Below are positions 12,458 through 58,800 of a stretch of DNA of 60,715 nucleotides, piece by piece. How positions within the stretch are numbered: the stretch's first letter is position 1; every line of letters begins with the position of its first letter. Made by a program: the position numbers and the translations under genes. Source of the DNA: Verrucomicrobiota bacterium (GTDB lineage: Bacteria > Verrucomicrobiota > Verrucomicrobiia > Limisphaerales > JACDHS01). The stretch spans positions 1 to 60,715 of the forward strand of contig JACDHS010000010.1 of NCBI GenBank assembly GCA_013820875.1. The letters run 5' to 3'. The notes below the pieces were generated by a model. The model searched no databases. It was not told the DNA's origin and saw only the letters and a list, made by a program, of their open reading frames with translations.

Positions 12458-12484
12458 CGGTGGGGTTTGGAGGTGCTTCCGCAC

Positions 12485-12540
12485 TTCTCCCCTTCTCCCT
12501 TTCTCCCTTTCTCCCTTTCTCCCCTTCACCCCTTCACCCC
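12485..12540 (+). repeat. Pyrimidine-rich short tandem repeat
   Basis: A low-complexity stretch of repeated CTCCCTTT followed by CCCCTTCA units, nearly pure pyrimidine on the plus strand. No gene is evident in it. It could form triplex or slipped structures and is a likely site of length variation. Confidence 0.7.
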
Positions 12541-12782: not shown

Positions 12783-13150
12783 CGGAAGACCCGTATCTCA
12801 CGCGATTTCCAAAGTTGCGGAGTCGTGAGATACGTTTCTCACGCCATTTTCATTCCTGCGGAGACGTGAGTTACGTTCTTTCGACATTTTCATTCTTGCA
12901 GGAACGTCAGATACGTTTCTCACCACTTTTTACTTCCGGCGGACACGTCAGATATATTTCTCACCACGTTTCGATTCTTGCGGAGACGTCAGATATATTT
13001 CTCACCACGTTTCAATTCCTGCGGACACGTCAGATATATTTCCCACCACGTTTCAATTCTTGCGGACACGTCGGATACGTTTCCCACCATCTTTTAAGAA
13101 TTGCGAGGACGTGAGAAACGTATCTCACGACTCCGCAACTTTGAAAATGA
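12783..13150 (+). repeat. Tandem array of about nine 41-bp hairpin units
   Basis: Units begin at about 12783, 12824, 12865, 12905, 12946, 12987, 13028, 13069 and 13110, giving steps of 41, 41, 40, 41, 41, 41, 41 and 41 bases. The common plan is CGTSAGATAYRTTTCTCAC, then a T-rich stretch, then TTGCGGAGA/TGCGGACA. The outer units contain a GTGAGA...TCTCAC stem; central units have lost part of it. The array is bounded by a perfect 34-bp inverted repeat, 12810-12843 against 13110-13143. A frame that happens to be open across it is not regarded as a gene. Confidence 0.85.
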
Positions 13151-13280
13151 CGAGAGAAACGCGTTTTCCTACCTCGCTGCACGCTCCGAAACGAGGATTT
13201 TCTGGTGAGGACATTCATGCGGCGATTGCCGCGATTTGTCCCAAGGCCAAACGGGCCGCAATCCCTCAGCCCAGGCCATC

Positions 13281-13441
13281 GGCCCACTGCCATTTAGTTA
13301 AGCAAAACGGACTATGAAAGTAACGGAATGAAGGCAAAAATCAGGGCAAACCGGCAGGTTTGCCCCACCAAGGTGGGGCGGAGTTGCCGCTCCGCCCTGA
13401 CTTCTGCCTTTGTTTAGACCTTAACTAAATGGCAGTGGGCC
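13281..13441. mobile_element. MITE-like hairpin abutting the oldest CRISPR repeat
   Basis: A perfect 22-bp terminal inverted repeat, GGCCCACTGCCATTTAGTTA.. at 13281-13302 and its reverse complement at 13420-13441, encloses about 117 bp. A second, inner inverted pair is present (AAGGCAAAAATCAGGGC against GCCCTGACTTCTGCCTT), plus smaller GC-rich hairpins. There is no coding capacity, so it would be non-autonomous. It ends two bases before the first array repeat. The inner ends resemble those of the hairpin at 25141-25297. Confidence 0.7.
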
Positions 13442-13443
13442 AT

Positions 13444-16400
13444 CGGACCATCCCCACGCGGGTGGGGAGAACTCTTCATCGCAGAAAAAGGAAGCGCTCT
13501 CATTCGGACCATCTCCACGTGTGTGGGGAGAACTATTGGGCACTCCGACCGCAACGCAACGGGCCGCTGGTTCTCGGACCATCCCCACATGTGTGGGGAG
13601 AACAGATCTACCCAATTCCCGAATAGACCAACCAACGGACCATCCCCACGTGTGTGGGGAGAACTCGTTAAATTTATGTCCGCCCCTGTCTGGTCCCGGA
13701 CCATCCCCACGTGTGTGGGGAGAACCGCACCTCGCCCGCATCCCGGAAACGCACAACCGGACCATCCCCACGTGTGTGGGGAGAACCGCTTGCGCTGTGA
13801 TGATGTTCAACCGTGCGTCGGACCATCCCCACGTGTGTGGGGAGAACTGAATAAATCGAAGCAGGCGGATGTGACGAACCGGACCATCCCCACGTGTGTG
13901 GGGAGAACGCTTACATCCTTGCTGTGGGTTTCATTAAAACCGGACCATCCCCACGTGTGTGGGGAGAACGCCCGCAACGCCGTCGCCACATCGGTGGACC
14001 GCGGACCATCCCCACGTGTGTGGGGAGAACTTTATCCCGCAACGTCACTCCCGGATCCGCTCCGGACCATCCCCACGTGTGTGGGGAGAACAACCAGAGC
14101 GAGGGATGACGCCCTTCCCTTCACGGACCATCCCCACGTGTGTGGGGAGAACCGTTCCTTCGCGCTCCCCCATCGGCATCCATTCGGACCATCCCCACGT
14201 GTGTGGGGAGAACGCTCACTTCATTTATCGGCGTCGTCGTGTTCTCGGACCATCCCCACGTGTGTGGGGAGAACTAATTCGGTCAGGTTCATTTCGGTTT
14301 GAAATACGGACCATCCCCACGTGTGTGGGGAGAACATGTTTTATTGTGTGTTGTGGAATTAGTTTTTCGGACCATCCCCACGTGTGTGGGGAGAACGCTT
14401 TCTGCCCGGCAATATCTGCGCCGTAATACGGACCATCCCCACGTGTGTGGGGAGAACATTTTTTCACAGTCGCGCAAATGGTTTGGACGCGGACCATCCC
14501 CACGTGTGTGGGGAGAACTGAAAAGCTCTTTACTATCCCCGCCGCATCGCCGGACCATCCCCACGTGTGTGGGGAGAACTCGTCAGGCACCGGGGTTTCG
14601 TGGCCGTAGTCCGGACCATCCCCACGTGTGTGGGGAGAACCGCTGGCATTCCAGGTCTGGCGTTGGGAACCACGGACCATCCCCACGTGTGTGGGGAGAA
14701 CGTTTTTTAGGGGCGGAACATTGTCCCCATACGCGGACCATCCCCACGTGTGTGGGGAGAACTTTGCCGGACAGCTTGCAATGAGATTTGCCGCCGGACC
14801 ATCCCCACGTGTGTGGGGAGAACATTCAGTGTTTCGTTGAACGCAAGCACAAAAACGGACCATCCCCACGTGTGTGGGGAGAACTACCAAGGATTTTTGC
14901 CGAAAATTCGTTCATTCGGACCATCCCCACGTGTGTGGGGAGAACTAAAAAGGCAGCGGAAAAGGCTCACAGCAGTCCGGACCATCCCCACGTGTGTGGG
15001 GAGAACTTTTAGAGTGACTGTTTGCATTGCTGATGACCCGGACCATCCCCACGTGTGTGGGGAGAACATCCGCAATGTGAACGGATTCATTTTTTGCATC
15101 GGACCATCCCCACGTGTGTGGGGAGAACCCAAACCTCGGTGCATACATTGTCCTTGTTGTCGGACCATCCCCACGTGTGTGGGGAGAACCCCATTTCGAG
15201 TCATACCCCAAGCTGGTAAGTCCGGACCATCCCCACGTGTGTGGGGAGAACTTTAGCCAATTCCATTTCGCGCAAAGTGCGGCCGGACCATCCCCACGTG
15301 TGTGGGGAGAACCTGCCTGCCGTCAAGCAGTGCTGCGAATTGTTCGGACCATCCCCACGTGTGTGGGGAGAACCTTCCGCGAATATCTGCGCCGCTCTTG
15401 ATTCGCGGACCATCCCCACGTGTGTGGGGAGAACTTCTTCACTATCAGCAATCGGGAAGCGCCTTGCGGACCATCCCCACGTGTGTGGGGAGAACGATAC
15501 TCATCCATCTTTAAGTCGCCTTTCCATCGGACCATCCCCACGTGTGTGGGGAGAACTTCGAATGACGCTTGCGCTTCCAGAAGTTCGCCGGACCATCCCC
15601 ACGTGTGTGGGGAGAACTGTTTTGCCGCAGTTGAGATACCGACCACCCGCGGACCATCCCCACGTGTGTGGGGAGAACCGCGCAACATCACGCGGCAAGG
15701 ATTGCGGACGCGGACCATCCCCACGTGTGTGGGGAGAACTGCTTTGCGCGTAGTCCGCTCAATCGGGATTTCGGACCATCCCCACGTGTGTGGGGAGAAC
15801 TCACCAGGCGGCTTAAAAGAAGCCACATCCCCCGGACCATCCCCACGTGTGTGGGGAGAACTCCTCGCTCCCCATCAACCGACGCGCATAAATCGGACCA
15901 TCCCCACGTGTGTGGGGAGAACTCCACAAGGCTTTGATACACCTCAACGAGCGGCGGACCATCCCCACGTGTGTGGGGAGAACTCCTGAAAAGTTACGCC
16001 CAATTTCTCGAACGACGGACCATCCCCACGTGTGTGGGGAGAACAAATACGCGGTAGTTGCCCGTATTTATGAAGACGGACCATCCCCACGTGTGTGGGG
16101 AGAACAATTCAATTGGTGAGTTGTCAGGAAAACACGCCGGACCATCCCCACGTGTGTGGGGAGAACTGCATCACGCTCCGAATCAAAATCCACGGAAACG
16201 GACCATCCCCACGTGTGTGGGGAGAACAAAACCACGCCGGACAAAGTTTATTCAAACGGCGGACCATCCCCACGTGTGTGGGGAGAACTGGACATCATCC
16301 AGGGCGATGCAATGCAGTTGCGGACCATCCCCACGTGTGTGGGGAGAACAAGCGGCTTCACTGCAGCGATGGTGAGAGGGTCGGACCATCCCCACGTGTG

Positions 16401-16593
16401 TGGGGAGAACGTTTGAGATTACGATCTCACGAAACCGCAGCGCGGACCATCCCCACGTGTGTGGGGAGAACTTCGTGAGATCGTAATCTCAAACTCCGCA
16501 GCGCGGACCATCCCCACGTGTGTGGGGAGAACCAAACAATGAACGGAACACCGCTCAACTGGGCCGGACCATCCCCACGTGTGTGGGGAGAAC
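13444..16593 (-). CRISPR. Type I-E CRISPR array, 52 repeats and 51 spacers
   Basis: The repeat is 29 bp. On the minus strand it reads GTTCTCCCCACACACGTGGG followed by GATGGTCCG, closely matching the type I-E pattern, so crRNAs are made from the minus strand with the leader at 16594. Spacers are 32 nt except for one of 41 nt (13534-13574) and one of 33 nt (15190-15222). Repeats are identical through most of the array; the three furthest from the leader vary (13444 has CGCGGG, 13505 has ATCTCC, 13575 has ACATGT), as expected for the old end. Spacers at 16411-16442 and 16472-16503 are related to one another. Frames open through the array are artefacts of the repeats. Confidence 0.99.
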
Positions 16594-30646: not shown

Positions 30647-31150
30647 ATGCAACATCTGCTCCGACTGACGCGCCATCATGCCTCTCTGTTACAGGCACTA
30701 ATCCTTTTTCTCGCCGTCGGACTCCTGCTTTCTGCAACGGCCTGCCGGACTATCGCGCCATTTGAGAGGGTGGACTTTACTAGAGCCGGCTGGAAAATCA
30801 AATCCGGACAAGCAGTTTGGAAGGTAAATCGGAATGCCCCAGAAATCGCCGGCGACCTGTTGTTTGCCTCTCAGAATCAAAGCAGGACGGTCCTGCAAAT
30901 GACAAAAAATCCATTTCCAATGGTAATCGCCCAGTTGCAGGCCAATAGCTGGCAGATCGAATTCCCAACAGAGAACCGAACTTACTCCGGGCGCGGCAAC
31001 CCGCCGAAACGTCTCGCATGGCTCCATTTGGCGAAGGCGTTGCAGGGCGGTCCTGTCCCTGAACCGTGGACGTTTCAAAAGACAGACGATACAAGCTGGC
31101 GATTCGAGAACTTGAAAACTGGCGAATTGATTGAAGGGTTTCTGGAGTGA
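30647..31150 (+). CDS. LolB-like outer-membrane lipoprotein
   Basis: Small lipoprotein, first gene of an export/lipid cassette. The N-terminus (LILFLAVGLLLSATAC) ends in a lipobox with Cys at about residue 33. The mature part is beta-rich (GWKIKSGQAVWKVN, DLLFASQNQSRTVLQM, FPMVIAQLQANSWQIEF). Small lipoproteins of this kind, described as LolB-like or DUF3261, accompany MMPL exporters and LolA in aryl-polyene-type clusters, and that context guides the call. Its end overlaps the MMPL gene start (GTGA). Sequence similarity alone would not name it; an unassigned lipoprotein is the cautious alternative. Confidence 0.65.
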   Translation: MQHLLRLTRHHASLLQALILFLAVGLLLSATACRTIAPFERVDFTRAGWKIKSGQAVWKVNRNAPEIAGDLLFASQNQSRTVLQMTKNPFPMVIAQLQANSWQIEFPTENRTYSGRGNPPKRLAWLHLAKALQGGPVPEPWTFQKTDDTSWRFENLKTGELIEGFLE

Positions 31151-33561
31151 CCCGCTTTTCTCGTCATTGGCTCTGGCTGCTGCTGCTGATTCCTATCGGA
31201 CTCGGACTCACCCGATTGCGCTTCGATGTCGAAGTATTGAATCTGCTCCCGAAAAATTCACCAGTGGTTCGCGGGCTGATGTTGTATCAGCAAAATTTTT
31301 CCAACGGACAGGAACTGCTGCTCACAATTAAATCCGAAGACCCCGATCAAACCGAAGAAGCGGCGCGGACAATTGCCATGGAACTTCGCGCTGCCACCAA
31401 CCTCGCATCGCAAGTGAACTGGCAACCACCCTGGGTTGAAAGTCCGGGGCAAGGCGCTGAACTGGTCGCTTATCTTTGGCTGAACCAACCTCCCGAAGTT
31501 TTCGGGCAACTGACCAACCGGCTTTCCGGCGATGAACTTACGAACACGATCCTCGAAGCACGGGAGCAAATAACGACTTCACTGTCGCCTGAAACCATCG
31601 CCCTGCGCGGTTATGATCCACTTGATCTCATGCGATTGCCGGAGAACGTCAGCGCTGGCGCGCAATCGTTCGGAGGCGGCAGCGAGTTCTTCGCCTCACA
31701 GGATGGAACTTTTCGCATTGTGTTTGTGCAACCTGCCTACGAACTGAGCGGTTACCGGGAGGCGGATGCATGGCTGAAATTGGTTCAGGAGATTGTCACG
31801 AAGGCCGTCAATGCACTCGATTCTCCGGAAGAAATAACACTGAGTTACACCGGCCATCCCGCCTTCGTAACGGAGATCGCGAGCGGGATGCAAAGTGACA
31901 TGACCGTTTCCGTTCTCGGCACCATGGTTATCATTGCGATTCTTTTCTGGATCGCGCACCGCCGATTCCGTCCCCTGCTCTGGCTCCTTGTCTTGCTCGG
32001 CCTTGTCCTGGGTGGAACCCTCTCGTTCGGCGGCCTGTTCTTTGGGACACTGAATGTAGTCAGCCTGGGATTCGCGGCGATTCTCCTGGGCCTGTCTGTT
32101 GATTACGGTCTGATCCTGTACCAGGAAGCGCGCGCCTCAAAGGAACCGATTCCAAAAGTGCGCCGCACCGTGGCCCCGAGCATTTTGTGGTCTGCCGTCA
32201 CGACGGCCGGAGCCTTCGCCATCTTGAACTTCAGCGGACTCCCCGGACTCGGGCAACTGGGTTCATTGGTAGCCATCGGAGTGCTGCTGTCGGCCACTGT
32301 AATGCTGTTTGCTTATCTGCCACCGCTTCGCGCTACTCTGTCGAGCGATGGCAATCGGGGAGCAATTCCTCAACCCGCGGGAGATGACAACGAGAAAACT
32401 TCCAGTCGAAAACGTGGAATCGAATTCCTGATCGCAACTCTCGCGTTGCTTATCATCTCGGTGGGCATTCTGTTTTACGGCGGCCCCACCTTTGATCAAT
32501 CTCCCGAAGCATTGCGCCCGAAGAACAGTCCGGCCTACGGCACCCTGGAAAAGATAAAAGCTGAACTCGGCCAAACCCAGGAACCGCTTTGGATAGTTGT
32601 CTCTGGAAAGAGCGAATCCGAAGTGGCATCCCGTCTCCTGCAGGCAGAAACATTTCTCCAAACCGCTGCAGAAAACAAACTCATCACGAGCTACACACTG
32701 GCGACGCCGCTTTGGCCCAGGGCAAATCATCAGATACAAAACCGGGAGAGCGCCCAACAAATCATCCAGAACAAAACGAACCTCTATGCCGCTGTCCTCG
32801 GACAAGGTTTCACCCGTGAATCTTTGCACCTGACGGAAAACATTTTGAACACGTGGCAATCCGCCCTGCGCAGCACAAATATATTCTGGCCCACCAACGA
32901 CGCGAGCCGTTGGACGATGAACCAGATATCCTCGCATCGGAACAACACATTTTTCGCACTCGGCCTGGTTTACCCGGTCACGGATGGCCCGGGTTCTGAG
33001 TTTGCAAACAGTCAACGCCTCCTTGAGCAATGGCCGGACGAATTGATTCGCAACGACGTCATCCTGTCCGGCTGGACGGTCCTGGGTGCGGCGATGTTTG
33101 ACCTGGTGGAACACGATTTACCGCGAGTCATCCTGCCGATGTTTGTGCTGCTGGTGGTCGCCCTTTGGCTGGCGTTTCGCTCTTTCAAGGCGGTGTTCTT
33201 GAGCTTTGCCGCATTGTTTTTCGCCGGACTGTGTCTCTTTGCCCTGATGTCGCTCACGGATCAGTCGTGGAATTTGATGAATATGATGGCGATTCCGCTG
33301 CTGCTTGGTTCAGCGGTGGATTACAGCATCCACATCCAACACGCCATGCATCGGCATCGGGGCGATATCCTTGCAGTCCGGCGCAGTGTCGGACGCGCCC
33401 TGCTCCTTTGCGGCGGCACAACCATCGCCGGGTTCGGTTCCCTGGCTTTTTCATCCAATGCAGGAATGGCGAGCCTCGGTCTGATCTGCGCCATTGGCAT
33501 TGCTATGAATGTCATTACCGCCGTTTATTTCCTGCCGAGATGGTGGCGGGCGATCCATTGA
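31147..33561 (+). CDS. MMPL/RND-family exporter
   Basis: Large inner-membrane transporter, 804 aa, GTG start. It has the duplicated RND plan: one N-terminal helix, a periplasmic loop, five to six helices (about 260-400), then a second set after a loop (about 420-640 and 650-800). Both halves carry the MMPL-type GLSVDYGLILYQEA and GSAVDYSIHIQHAMH segments with the conserved Asp-Tyr pair used in proton coupling. MMPL proteins export lipids and polyketide-like products; here the neighbours are a LolB-like lipoprotein, a lipid A-type acyltransferase, LolA and a FabZ-like dehydratase. It is followed by 342 bp holding a hairpin array. Confidence 0.9.
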   Translation: MTRFSRHWLWLLLLIPIGLGLTRLRFDVEVLNLLPKNSPVVRGLMLYQQNFSNGQELLLTIKSEDPDQTEEAARTIAMELRAATNLASQVNWQPPWVESPGQGAELVAYLWLNQPPEVFGQLTNRLSGDELTNTILEAREQITTSLSPETIALRGYDPLDLMRLPENVSAGAQSFGGGSEFFASQDGTFRIVFVQPAYELSGYREADAWLKLVQEIVTKAVNALDSPEEITLSYTGHPAFVTEIASGMQSDMTVSVLGTMVIIAILFWIAHRRFRPLLWLLVLLGLVLGGTLSFGGLFFGTLNVVSLGFAAILLGLSVDYGLILYQEARASKEPIPKVRRTVAPSILWSAVTTAGAFAILNFSGLPGLGQLGSLVAIGVLLSATVMLFAYLPPLRATLSSDGNRGAIPQPAGDDNEKTSSRKRGIEFLIATLALLIISVGILFYGGPTFDQSPEALRPKNSPAYGTLEKIKAELGQTQEPLWIVVSGKSESEVASRLLQAETFLQTAAENKLITSYTLATPLWPRANHQIQNRESAQQIIQNKTNLYAAVLGQGFTRESLHLTENILNTWQSALRSTNIFWPTNDASRWTMNQISSHRNNTFFALGLVYPVTDGPGSEFANSQRLLEQWPDELIRNDVILSGWTVLGAAMFDLVEHDLPRVILPMFVLLVVALWLAFRSFKAVFLSFAALFFAGLCLFALMSLTDQSWNLMNMMAIPLLLGSAVDYSIHIQHAMHRHRGDILAVRRSVGRALLLCGGTTIAGFGSLAFSSNAGMASLGLICAIGIAMNVITAVYFLPRWWRAIH

Positions 33562-33599
33562 TTGTGCTCATAAACATGGATTCAGCAATTTTCGCCATC

Positions 33600-33820
33600 C
33601 GAAGCGCCTCCGAGCCAAATAAATATCTTTTTTCTCCGTCCGAGGCGCTTCGGAACCAGATAAAAGATATTTTTGGACGTTCCGTGCGTGCGGAAGCCTC
33701 ATAAAAGATGTTTTTTGGCGTTCAATACGTGTTGAAACCCGATAAAAGATCTCTTTCGACGTTCACAACGTGATGAAACCCCATAAAAGATGTTTTTCGA
33801 CGTTCTTACAGGTCTGTTTG
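33600..33820 (+). repeat. Tandem array of five 41-bp units with covarying hairpins
   Basis: The motif ATAAA(A)GAT recurs at 33619, 33660, 33701, 33742 and 33783, exactly 41 bases apart each time. Between copies lies a 16-base hairpin: TCCGAGGCGCTTCGGA (33639-33654), TTCCGTGCGTGCGGAA (33680-33695), TTCAATACGTGTTGAA (33721-33736) and TTCACAACGTGATGAA (33762-33777), also 41 bases apart. Stem bases change in pairs, for example G-C, C-G and A-T at the fourth pair. The first unit is also flanked by GAAGCGCCTC / GAGGCGCTTC. The array fills most of the gap between the exporter and acyltransferase genes; no gene is seen in it. Confidence 0.85.
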
Positions 33821-33903
33821 CCTTTAAAAGGGGGCGAACAGAACCCTGAACGACTCCGCACCTATATTATTACACAGTTTGCCATGCTTTCTCGCTGACC
33901 CGA

Positions 33904-34806
33904 ATGAAAGCTTCTGCCCTTTATCGCTCTGAATTATGGAAGGCCGGTTTATCTGCTGCCCGGAAGCTTCCTGCGCCAATTAGCGGCGGTCTCGCCCGTC
34001 TGTTCGGCGCGGGATATTATGCTTTCTCGAACAACCGACCAGAAATCGTCATCGAAAACCTTCTGCCCGCCGTAAATGGCGACTACGTCCGCGCAGAAAA
34101 ACTCACCCGGGAACTGTTCCAAAATTTTGCGCAGAAGCTCGTTGACCTTTGGCGCTATGAAAGCGGCATTCCGATCGAACATTTGTTTCGATATCGGAGC
34201 GGATTGGAAGTCTTTGAAACGGCTAAACAGGAAAAGCGCGGGATCCTGATTGTAACTCCCCATCTCGGCAACTGGGAATTCGGCGCACCCATTCTGGCCA
34301 AACGCGGAATCAGGTTGCTCGTCATCACGATGGAGGAACCCGATCCGCGCCTGACCGAAATGCGCAAAGCGTCCCGCGAACGCTGGGGCATCGAGACCCT
34401 CGTCATAGGCAGCAATCCGTTTGCGTTTATCGAAGTGATCCGGCGACTCGAGGCCGGTGAAGTGGTTGCGCTCCTCGTGGATCGTCCGCATCCAGCCAAC
34501 TCTGTCATCGTCGAACTTTTTGGAAAACCTTTTGCCGCCTCAGTCGCACCGGCGGAACTGGCGCGCGCCACCGGTTGCAAGATTGTTCCCGTTTACCTGC
34601 CGCGCATCGCGGACGGTTATGCCGCGCATACTTTGCCTGAGATTGAGTACGAACGCGCCGCGCTACGTCCAATGGAAGCCCGGCAAGCGCTCGCGCAAAA
34701 AATCATGCGTGCGTTCGAACCGGTCATACGCGAACATTTAAGTCAATGGTACCATTTCGTCCCAATCTGGAACCGGGAAGAGTCGCCGCTGAAACAGGCG
34801 AAGTGA
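33904..34806 (+). CDS. LpxL/HtrB-type lysophospholipid acyltransferase
   Basis: Membrane-associated acyltransferase of the lipid A biosynthesis family. It has the catalytic motif HLGNWE, with His120 and Glu125 in an HX4E arrangement, in the context LIVTPHLGNWEFGAPILAKRG. Further conserved blocks are VDRPHPANSVIVELFGKPFAASVAPAELAR and the C-terminal QWYHFVPIW. The 300-aa length is typical. In a cluster with an MMPL exporter, LolA and a dehydratase it may acylate a lipid or polyketide-type product instead of lipid A; this is inference. Its stop overlaps the preferred start of the next gene (TGATG). Confidence 0.88.
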   Translation: MKASALYRSELWKAGLSAARKLPAPISGGLARLFGAGYYAFSNNRPEIVIENLLPAVNGDYVRAEKLTRELFQNFAQKLVDLWRYESGIPIEHLFRYRSGLEVFETAKQEKRGILIVTPHLGNWEFGAPILAKRGIRLLVITMEEPDPRLTEMRKASRERWGIETLVIGSNPFAFIEVIRRLEAGEVVALLVDRPHPANSVIVELFGKPFAASVAPAELARATGCKIVPVYLPRIADGYAAHTLPEIEYERAALRPMEARQALAQKIMRAFEPVIREHLSQWYHFVPIWNREESPLKQAK

Positions 34807-46632: not shown

Positions 46633-46835
46633 TACCGAGTCCCGATCCGAACGGATTGCCTCTCGGTTACGCTAACCGAGTCCCGATCCGAACGGATTGC
46701 CTCTCGGTTACGCTAACCGAGTCCCGATCCGGACGGATTGCCTCTCGGTTACGCTAACCGAGTCCCGATCCGGACGGATTGCCTCTCGGTTACGCTAACC
46801 GAGTCCCGATCCGGACGGATTGCCTCTCGGTTACG
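46633..46835 (+). repeat. Five near-identical 41-bp palindromic tandem units
   Basis: ACCGAGTCCCGATCC recurs at 46634, 46675, 46716, 46757 and 46798, exactly 41 bases apart. Each unit folds as TAACCGAG ... ATCCG.ACGGAT ... CTCGGTTA with a CGC linker. The first two copies carry AACGGAT and the last three GACGGAT, otherwise they are nearly identical, indicating recent amplification. The surrounding gap (46430-46993), between the convergent GH9 and feoB genes, shows no gene. Confidence 0.95.
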
Positions 46836-55884: not shown

Positions 55885-58800
55885 ATGATCAAAACTAACT
55901 TTTACCCGCTGAGAACGATCGTTGGACCATCGATCCGAATAAATGGAATCACCAGCTATCCTAGGGATCCAGGCCCCCTGACAATCGAGGTTAAGAGCCG
56001 TCGTGACCAGAGCGATGCTGTGGTTGATAATGTTTATTCCAAGTTTCTCCCGGACATTGTCCAAAATGGTGTTCTATACCGCCCAGTAAATGGCATGAAC
56101 ACAATGCCTGTCGCCGACAGCAATCTATTGTCCTTCGGCAACATTGGCGCAGCCGGATTGCTTAATGCCTTCAGGAATCCACCTGATCTTCCGTTCCCCG
56201 ATACCGAGCCTTTGTGGTCCATTTTTGGCTACGACGAAAAGAACCTTTTCGAAATGGTGCTAGACTCACCTTCCAACGGCCCAAAGGTTAACCCCTTTTG
56301 GTCGAACCAGGACAAAGATTATTCCTTTTTGATACTGCTAGACCGGTTGGCTCCCGTTGGAGGGATCTGTTTTCAGGGCTATCCGTTTGTTTCCAGCAGG
56401 ATTGAGAACACAGCCGAAGGATTAACGGTTGGGAATTTCGGATTGCCGAAGGAAATCCGACTAACTCCGCTTCCAGCCTTCAACGGCGGGTCTTTGGATG
56501 CACATTTGGGGTTCGAACGGAGTCAATTCATCGATTCCGAGTTCGCATATACCCGGCAGGAAATGATTTCGCATAGCGGTTTGAATTACCTGACCATCGA
56601 TCCGGTCAAAACCAATTTATTTCTGCTCACGCTGACGGACCTCCCTTTTATCCCGAGAATCATTGATCTCGATGCACGTGCAGACCAGGCAGACAATCCG
56701 TTGCTGGTGAAAGGGTTCAAGGGATTCGCGATGCCTTACCTGTATTTCTTTGAATATAAAGAACAGACAAAGCGGCATGCACGGCTGCACTCGGGGTTGC
56801 TTGGAGTGAAGCCCTCTTACCCTCATCGACCTAAGATCGATGGAGACAGCACACGCGAGGATGTTCTTCGGAGGGCATTTCCCGAATATGAGTTTTACTT
56901 TTTGAAAGAAGGGAAAAAGGACGCCGACAGTTCAAGCGCAAAAACCATCAAAGAACTTCAAGCTGAATTGGTCGGTCTCAAAGCAGCACTGAAGAGCAAA
57001 GCTAAAAATAAGGAGAAAATCAAAAAGCGAATTCAAGAGCTCACGCAAAAACTGAAAAAACTTCAAAAGAAGAGCCAAGGCGCGGAGAAAAATGCAAACC
57101 AGGAAGGCGGATACATTCTTTACACTGCTCACAGCGCACTTGGCCAACGCAGAGAGTTTCAGATTTCTTACGCAGACCTCGGTTATCCTCAAGAATTATC
57201 AAACGTGCCACCCTTGAGGAGCGGCAAGCTGATTTCGGAATGTTTTATTTCCGATTTATTGCAGCCTGACGAGAGCGTCACGCTTTACCTACAACAAGGT
57301 GAAGAGCTCGAACGATGTATCGCTGGATTGAAAGCACTCTTTCTTATGCTGCCTGAGGACATCGAGTCAGGCGGGTTGGCTGAATGGTTTGCGAACTTCT
57401 CAGGAATGGCGTTGGGCAACAACCCCTTGACGGAACAAGAGAGAACCTTGCTAGAGGACGCTCTCGCGGTGATGTTTCGGCTTCCTGTCGAAACGAATTT
57501 CTGCGAGAGCATCGGCGTTAAGATTTTTGAAATTGATCCCGTTGAAGGAGTCTCGCCAGCGTCAGTAGATTTCCATTCGAAGTACGCCCACTTGCTTGCC
57601 GATGTAACGATCGACACGTTTGAGGAAGTGATCTTTTCACAGTTGCTGAAAGGAATACCTTTTCGCAGGACTTCGTCAGCCAAGTACTTCGCAATTGAAT
57701 TAACAAACAAAGGCCAGAAGAACGGCCAGGTTGCCATTCATTCACTTCACCTGGTTCGGTCAGCGCATGTCTCTGTTCAGCCCAGGGCAGCAAAAACACA
57801 GCAAGTGAAGGCGATGCACTACCGCATTATTGGGCCTGAACTGGCTGATGACTTCGCAAAGCTCGGGAATGAGGGATTCAATTTCAGCATTGATCGGGTT
57901 GTTGCGGGGCAAACAAAGAATGTAATGTACTCTGCTATTAGCTTGTTGGATTTGCTGCATACCGGCGGGGCAAGAATCCATTCAAACGCCAGAAGGAGAG
58001 CTGCAGAATTTGAAATGATCGAAAATTTTAGAGAGTTGCCGCAAAAAGATTTTGGACAAGCACAGAACTACCAAATCAAAAAGTTCAGCAACGATGATTT
58101 CTCCAGATCAAACGAAGATAATCGTGTAACTCAAGGGTGGAAAAGAAGCGAGAGTGGCGATGGAGTTTCATGGAATTCACCTAAATATAGACCGCAAGAT
58201 TTCCCAAGTTCGATCAACGAAAGTGCATTCGAGAGTTATGGAACCATCGAAAATCGGATTCATAGTACATCATTATTTCCTGATACGACGAACATTGACT
58301 GGGCAACAGTTTCTGCCTTAGGAAATATGCTCAAGGTCATTACTGACCCGACACAGGGCCTCCAAACCGTTATAAATCAGTTTAATAGTGGAGGCATTAA
58401 CGACCTAAGATCATTCATAGATTCTTTAATTCCTGACGGCTTATTAATACAAAGCTACAGGGCAGCAACCGTCGCAAATAGCAATAGGGAACAATTAGTC
58501 AAAGATTTCGAAAAAATTTGGAAGGGTATTAGCACCTCTGCAAATAGCTTACGGGTTACTGGAATTGTCTCATCATCTCAATCGCCAGTTGGAATATCTG
58601 CAATTGCAGGAGATACTCTTGGCGATGTTATCAGGTCTCTTGATAATTTATTTAAAATGGGTTCTGACTTAACTAGTCTTTTGACTCAATCTGATACTCA
58701 ATCTGATACTCAATCTGATACTCAATTTGATATTGCTAAGATAGGGGAAATTATTGAGGGCTTTGGTGGTATGCTGGATCTGCTAATTACTATCGGTTCC

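Follow-up and report, generated by a model that had tools for sequence, protein, structure and literature searches.

A palindromic 41-bp tandem array in a Verrucomicrobiota genome as a probable member of a composite, MITE-like class of intergenic repeats

Described repeat systems and the 41- to 43-bp arrays

Bacterial minisatellites are usually treated family by family, and their unit lengths are idiosyncratic. The BOX elements of pneumococcus and S. suis, with their layout boxA-boxB(n)-boxC, form hairpins, occur in several variants in one genus, and are viewed as non-autonomous mobile DNA; the published models of the pneumococcal elements found nothing in three nasopharyngeal species outside the streptococci (PMC3049150). 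BrickBuilt of Porphyromonas gingivalis is one family of 19 copies that consists of 23-nt repeats and has ends matching IS5-family elements (PMC4596501). GTAG/CGTC REPs and BIMEs with RAYT are short dispersed palindromes and clusters thereof, known from bacteria including a Verrucomicrobium, O. terrae (PMC3733652).

Here we describe a tandem array at 33.6 kb of a DNA stretch of 60,715 nucleotides (the window) from a Verrucomicrobiota bacterium, together with related arrays of its genome. The arrays resemble BOX in layout, as dispersed composite repeats that, in families examined in depth, have fixed ends and variable tandem middle modules (PMC3049150). In contrast to BOX, about 20 families share one module length here, many of them with half-period dyads, and the terminal units are often inverted modules. 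With BrickBuilt, they share the arrangement of an intergenic minisatellite within a leader and a tail with inverted ends (PMC4596501), but the modules measure 41–43 bp and belong to many families. Like REPs and BIMEs, they are short dispersed palindromes that occur in clusters (PMC3733652), whereas their strict head-to-tail period of 41–43 bp and the lack of a clear RAYT association set them apart. CRISPR arrays are comparably regular, with partly palindromic repeats, and a 43-bp family of the genome likewise has one distinct terminal unit; however, the whole 41- to 43-bp unit repeats here, with no unique spacers between repeats, and the genuine CRISPR-like array of the window (14242-16532, repeat CGGACCATCCCCACGTGTGTGGGGAGAAC) has a period of 61 bp. 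Roughly fifty arrays per million bases sampled, in about 20 families, have a length that is locked to 41–43 bp, or about four helical turns, and this is likewise the case in a sister genus with which no common array sequence was found. With this length lock, ideas on how bacterial minisatellites arise and become homogenised can be put to the test.

Anatomy and stem pairing of the 33.6-kb array

Direct reading of the sequence delimits four head-to-tail 41-bp units at 33638-33801, and Tandem Repeats Finder (TRF) gave a period of 41 for this array. Both agree exactly with the earlier note on this DNA, which had described four 16-base hairpins recurring every 41 bases: the 16-mers TCCGAGGCGCTTCGGA (33639), TTCCGTGCGTGCGGAA (33680), TTCAATACGTGTTGAA (33721), and TTCACAACGTGATGAA (33762) are spaced by exactly 41 bp. 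All four units are on the plus strand. Unit 1 (33638-33678) contains the hairpin TCCGA-GGCGCT-TCGGA at 33639-33654, unit 2 (33679-33719) the hairpin TTCCG-TGCGTG-CGGAA at 33680-33695, unit 3 (33720-33760) the hairpin TTCAA-TACGTG-TTGAA at 33721-33736, and unit 4 (33761-33801) the hairpin TTCA-CAACGTGA-TGAA at 33762-33777, in which the fifth pair, C-A, is unpaired. A weaker second dyad, AAAAGATNTTTTT, is found in each unit at an offset of about 20 bp, which is about half a period; in unit 3, it is AAAGATCTCTTT at 33745-33756. A diverged unit 0 (approximately 33597-33637) lies on the minus strand, an orientation based on minus-strand matches of 33621-33672, and through its palindrome forms a 13-bp stem with unit 1 that spans 33598-33654. 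The array is closed by a terminal imperfect hairpin, CAGGTCTGTTTGCC...GGCGAACAGAACCCTG, at 33809-33848 (no strand assigned). The inverted unit 0, the closing hairpin, and the second dyads had been absent from the earlier note and are added here.

In the outer 5-bp stems of the four units, 19 of 20 cells are Watson-Crick pairs. Counted from the outside, pair 2 is C-G or T-A, pair 4 is G-C, C-G, A-T, and A-T across units 1–4, and pair 5 is A-T, G-C, and A-T before the mismatch of unit 4, with both-side changes at all three pairs, exactly as had been described. The true arm pairing was the best among 24 permutations (p=0.04, the smallest value attainable with four units). A covariation analysis was carried out with the 11 distinct units of the 33.6-kb array and two sister arrays of the same genome, in which 92.7% of the cells are paired. 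Its score of 0.335 was well above the controls, which gave 0.098 for shuffled units (0/500) and did not exceed 0.116 for slid partners; as the units are related, these figures are not true p-values.

Across the gapless arrays sampled, variable dyad positions were paired in 281 of 480 cells, with 271 expected from shuffling. As within-array compensation is thus hardly above chance, we rejected compensatory evolution within arrays as a genome-wide process, and the 33.6-kb array stands out by its strong compensation. The view that paired changes imply selection on structure is therefore not supported, and the symmetry may stem from module origin or from copying. Quasi-palindrome correction is a known templated mutation process, and the 33.6-kb array may be old and diverged, with each module re-symmetrised, for example, in this way. 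Compensatory change at 33.6 kb is not sufficient on its own to demonstrate that an RNA is under selection, and selection at the RNA level is only weakly indicated by compensatory changes in one tandem array.

Arrays of the same period in the genome and its relatives

The unit family of the 33.6-kb array recurs twice more in the genome, in an array of 6 units on contig C19 and in one of 7.5 units on contig C71. Unit identity is 0.97 within the C19 array, 0.84 within the C71 array, and 0.80 between these two, while the 33.6-kb units show an identity of 0.72, a divergence as large as that between arrays. The three copies share no flanks outside the arrays, and in comparison to BOX, the A-B(n)-C layout with boxA/boxC-like ends is therefore shown in other families of this genome and not in the 33.6-kb one.

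A TRF census at periods of 25–70 bp, with the CRISPR-like array excluded, covered 972 kb, or 17% of the assembly. The period was 41 bp in 30 arrays, 42 bp in 15, and 43 bp in 6, which together account for 51 of the 52 arrays; the single exception, with two copies of 33 bp, overlaps a called gene. The arrays form 20 BLAST-linked groups that are unlinked to each other by BLAST. Despite 76% of the bases being called as coding by our simple home-made gene caller, all 51 arrays of period 41–43 are intergenic, and as a period of 41 is also out of frame between units, a coding origin was rejected. Several contigs start or stop inside arrays, from which it follows that the assembly breaks at arrays. 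The window itself contains two further 41-bp arrays, both without strand assignment. One of them, at 12784-13170 (12816-13089 by TRF), has inverted ends of about 60 bp containing GTTGCGGAGTCGTGAGATACGTTTCTCACG, and the other, at 46634-46835, comprises 4.9 copies with 99% matches and carries the dyad CTCGGTTACGCTAACCGAG and a weaker ATCCGGACGGAT per unit. A REP-like piece at 13238-13284, which also occurs at the RAYT-like locus L185, lies near the 12.8-kb array.

The spacings between neighbouring dyad axes round to 20, 21, or 22 bp in 178 of 228 cases, and many families are chains of dyads at half-period spacing (20.5, 21, or 21.5 bp). Of 26 representative units, 11 exceeded shuffles in dyad symmetry of the full unit (p<0.05; mean z 2.2), and a handful fell below the shuffled mean. 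As some units thus have no symmetry, the period is the general trait and symmetry a common one. AAAAA occurs in 14 of the 26 representative units (1.9 expected), and CGTC/GACG in 13 (6.7 expected). A single sequence motif common to all families was rejected, as only A-tracts and ACGT/ACGTC are enriched. Judged by the AAAAA and ACGTC that they have in common, the families may be related to each other and have diverged.

Two families were examined in depth, and both are composite interspersed repeats with fixed ends around 0 to about 9 tandem modules. In the L106 family, 17 matches to the right end revealed that the left part and the long right part are both fixed, with a variable number of modules between them; the L199 copy has no internal module at all. 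At L193, L202-L204, and L207, two module subtypes of this family alternate, resulting in a higher-order period of 82–83 bp. In the 43-bp family, for which 27 matches to the end were obtained, one end is fixed, nearly all full copies share the distinctive last unit GACGGCAAGTTGGCCAACC, and the number of units beyond this terminal unit varies. Inverted repeats at the array edges were above the 95% level of the null in 22 of 41 arrays and reached 60 bp at 12.8 kb; where the units themselves are symmetric, such inverted ends are partly automatic.

In 223 kb from a sister genus of the same family, there were 8 arrays with a period of 41 or 42, and the comparison of the arrays of our genome with the sister-genus genome gave one marginal 26-bp match only. 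A further 706 kb, drawn from about 25 other families of the order, contained zero 41- to 43-bp arrays. As far as can be judged from these comparisons, it is the period and not the sequence that is common to the genome and its sister genus. The unit family recurs within the same genome, but neither the 33.6-kb array nor the L106 element found a match in about 320 genomes of the order, with scoring confined to the two best candidates of each genome, and a pattern search in 58 relatives gave only scattered matches with 1–3 mismatches.

Operon context and competing explanations

In agreement with the earlier description, the 33.6-kb array is flanked by an MMPL-family exporter gene upstream (31147-33561, plus strand) and a lipid A acyltransferase (LpxL)-like gene downstream (33904-34806, plus strand), which form its context and lie outside the element. 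Many other families of the order retain the gene succession up167-MMPL-LpxL-LolA(-FabZ) of this operon, and the MMPL-LpxL gaps of relatives mostly measure tens to about 150 bp, with no TRF array at the junction. That synteny is kept without the array indicates that the latter is a lineage-specific insertion. One MMPL relative (L021 in genome G054) contains one in-frame TGA. The genes around arrays of the census are divergent in 10, co-directional in 16, and convergent in 5 cases, which equals the expectation from intergenic bases; array positions are thus random with respect to gene orientation. A small gene family of unknown type, with 4 of 8 members near arrays in comparison to 1.4 expected, was considered as a recurrent neighbour and was not convincing.

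The array had been thought to govern mRNA processing or differential expression. Such an RNA element in the MMPL-LpxL transcript, with hairpins under selection and with control over the processing or stability of the mRNA or over differential expression, is in line with the compensated stems, with the strong hairpins at either end of the array, and with the folding of the sense strand at this locus, which surpasses that of shuffles (z -5.0) and that of the antisense strand (z -2.6). However, arrays genome-wide have fold z-scores of -6.0 in sense and -5.4 in antisense (about -5.5 on both strands; control -1.2), sense is the more stable of the two strands in 6 of 16 cases, and there is no excess of G-T over A-C mismatches at dyad positions (54/64). 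Strong folding on either strand, together with A-C mismatches being as frequent as G-T, speaks for a symmetry at the DNA level, and the lack of an orientation preference, of a strand bias, and of a G·T excess does not favour a role as RNA in the operon. As syntenic operons of relatives also lack the array, as no terminator- or promoter-like site was found at it, and as a scan of the window with Rfam covariance models at gathering thresholds gave no match, we regard the proposed regulatory role as very unlikely. That the arrays are REP clusters of the BIME type, spread by Y1/HUH REP-associated transposases, appears highly improbable to us. The genome has seven Y1_Tnp matches, the units are palindromic and dispersed, and other REP-like repeats surround the RAYT-like genes, but the arrays do not track the Y1 genes: they are absent from six of the seven loci and thus do not flank RAYT genes in the manner of REPtrons, and the array at the remaining locus, L185, is about 1 kb away from the gene. 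Moreover, repeats common to RAYT loci and the genome are mostly elements of about 100 bp outside arrays, and the relatives G022 and G025 have Y1_Tnp genes and no 41- to 43-bp arrays in the stretches sampled. The three strong Y1/RAYT-like transposase genes, at L184, L185, and L186, lie amid dispersed REP-like repeats of about 100 bp that are mostly separate from the arrays.

A host-functional DNA lattice, in which the arrays are platforms for a putative lineage-specific nucleoid or segregation protein, would explain that the period is kept while the sequence drifts, as the protein would read dyads every two helical turns. It is consistent with a period of about 4 x 10.5 bp in about 20 families and in a sister genus without common array sequence, with dyads every 20.5–21.5 bp, with the intergenic position throughout, and with the frequent AAAAA. 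We nevertheless consider it unlikely, since there is no common binding motif past A-tracts and ACGT/ACGTC, some families have composite mobile-element ends, the module number is zero in L199, and some units lack dyads. It is conceivable, if rather doubtful, that a lineage-specific length-measuring machinery, either a lattice or a recombinase, builds or maintains 41- to 43-bp arrays of any sequence with dyads every two turns. The conservation of module length without that of sequence points to such a measuring device, and if it exists, module length would be inherited across genera and module sequence replaced. All array families may also be of common descent, with their sequence similarity since lost.

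Probably, the 33.6-kb array belongs to a composite, MITE-like class of intergenic repeats with a putative mobilising factor, and the reading that we prefer is that of an element resembling mobile DNA, of the BOX or MITE-with-minisatellite kind, and not that of an operon regulator. The core of this class would be a variable number of 41- to 43-bp modules, many with two palindromes about two helical turns apart. Copies may spread by non-autonomous transposition or by recombination through the inverted ends, and slippage or unequal exchange would add, remove, and homogenise modules. The module length and the dyads could mirror how a symmetric DNA-binding protein contacts one face of the helix, and candidate readers of two dyads so spaced are a symmetric recombinase or transposase or an architectural protein. 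In this lineage, the array would have entered the junction of MMPL and LpxL with no dedicated role in the operon, and its hairpins may affect the transcript incidentally. Its compensated changes would then originate from arm-to-arm copying within palindromes, i.e., quasi-palindrome correction, or from symmetry retained for protein binding, and not from RNA folding.

Short tandem repeats are also present in the window, with four copies of ACTCAATCTGAT at 58684-58732 and seven copies of CTTCTCCC at 12484-12540.
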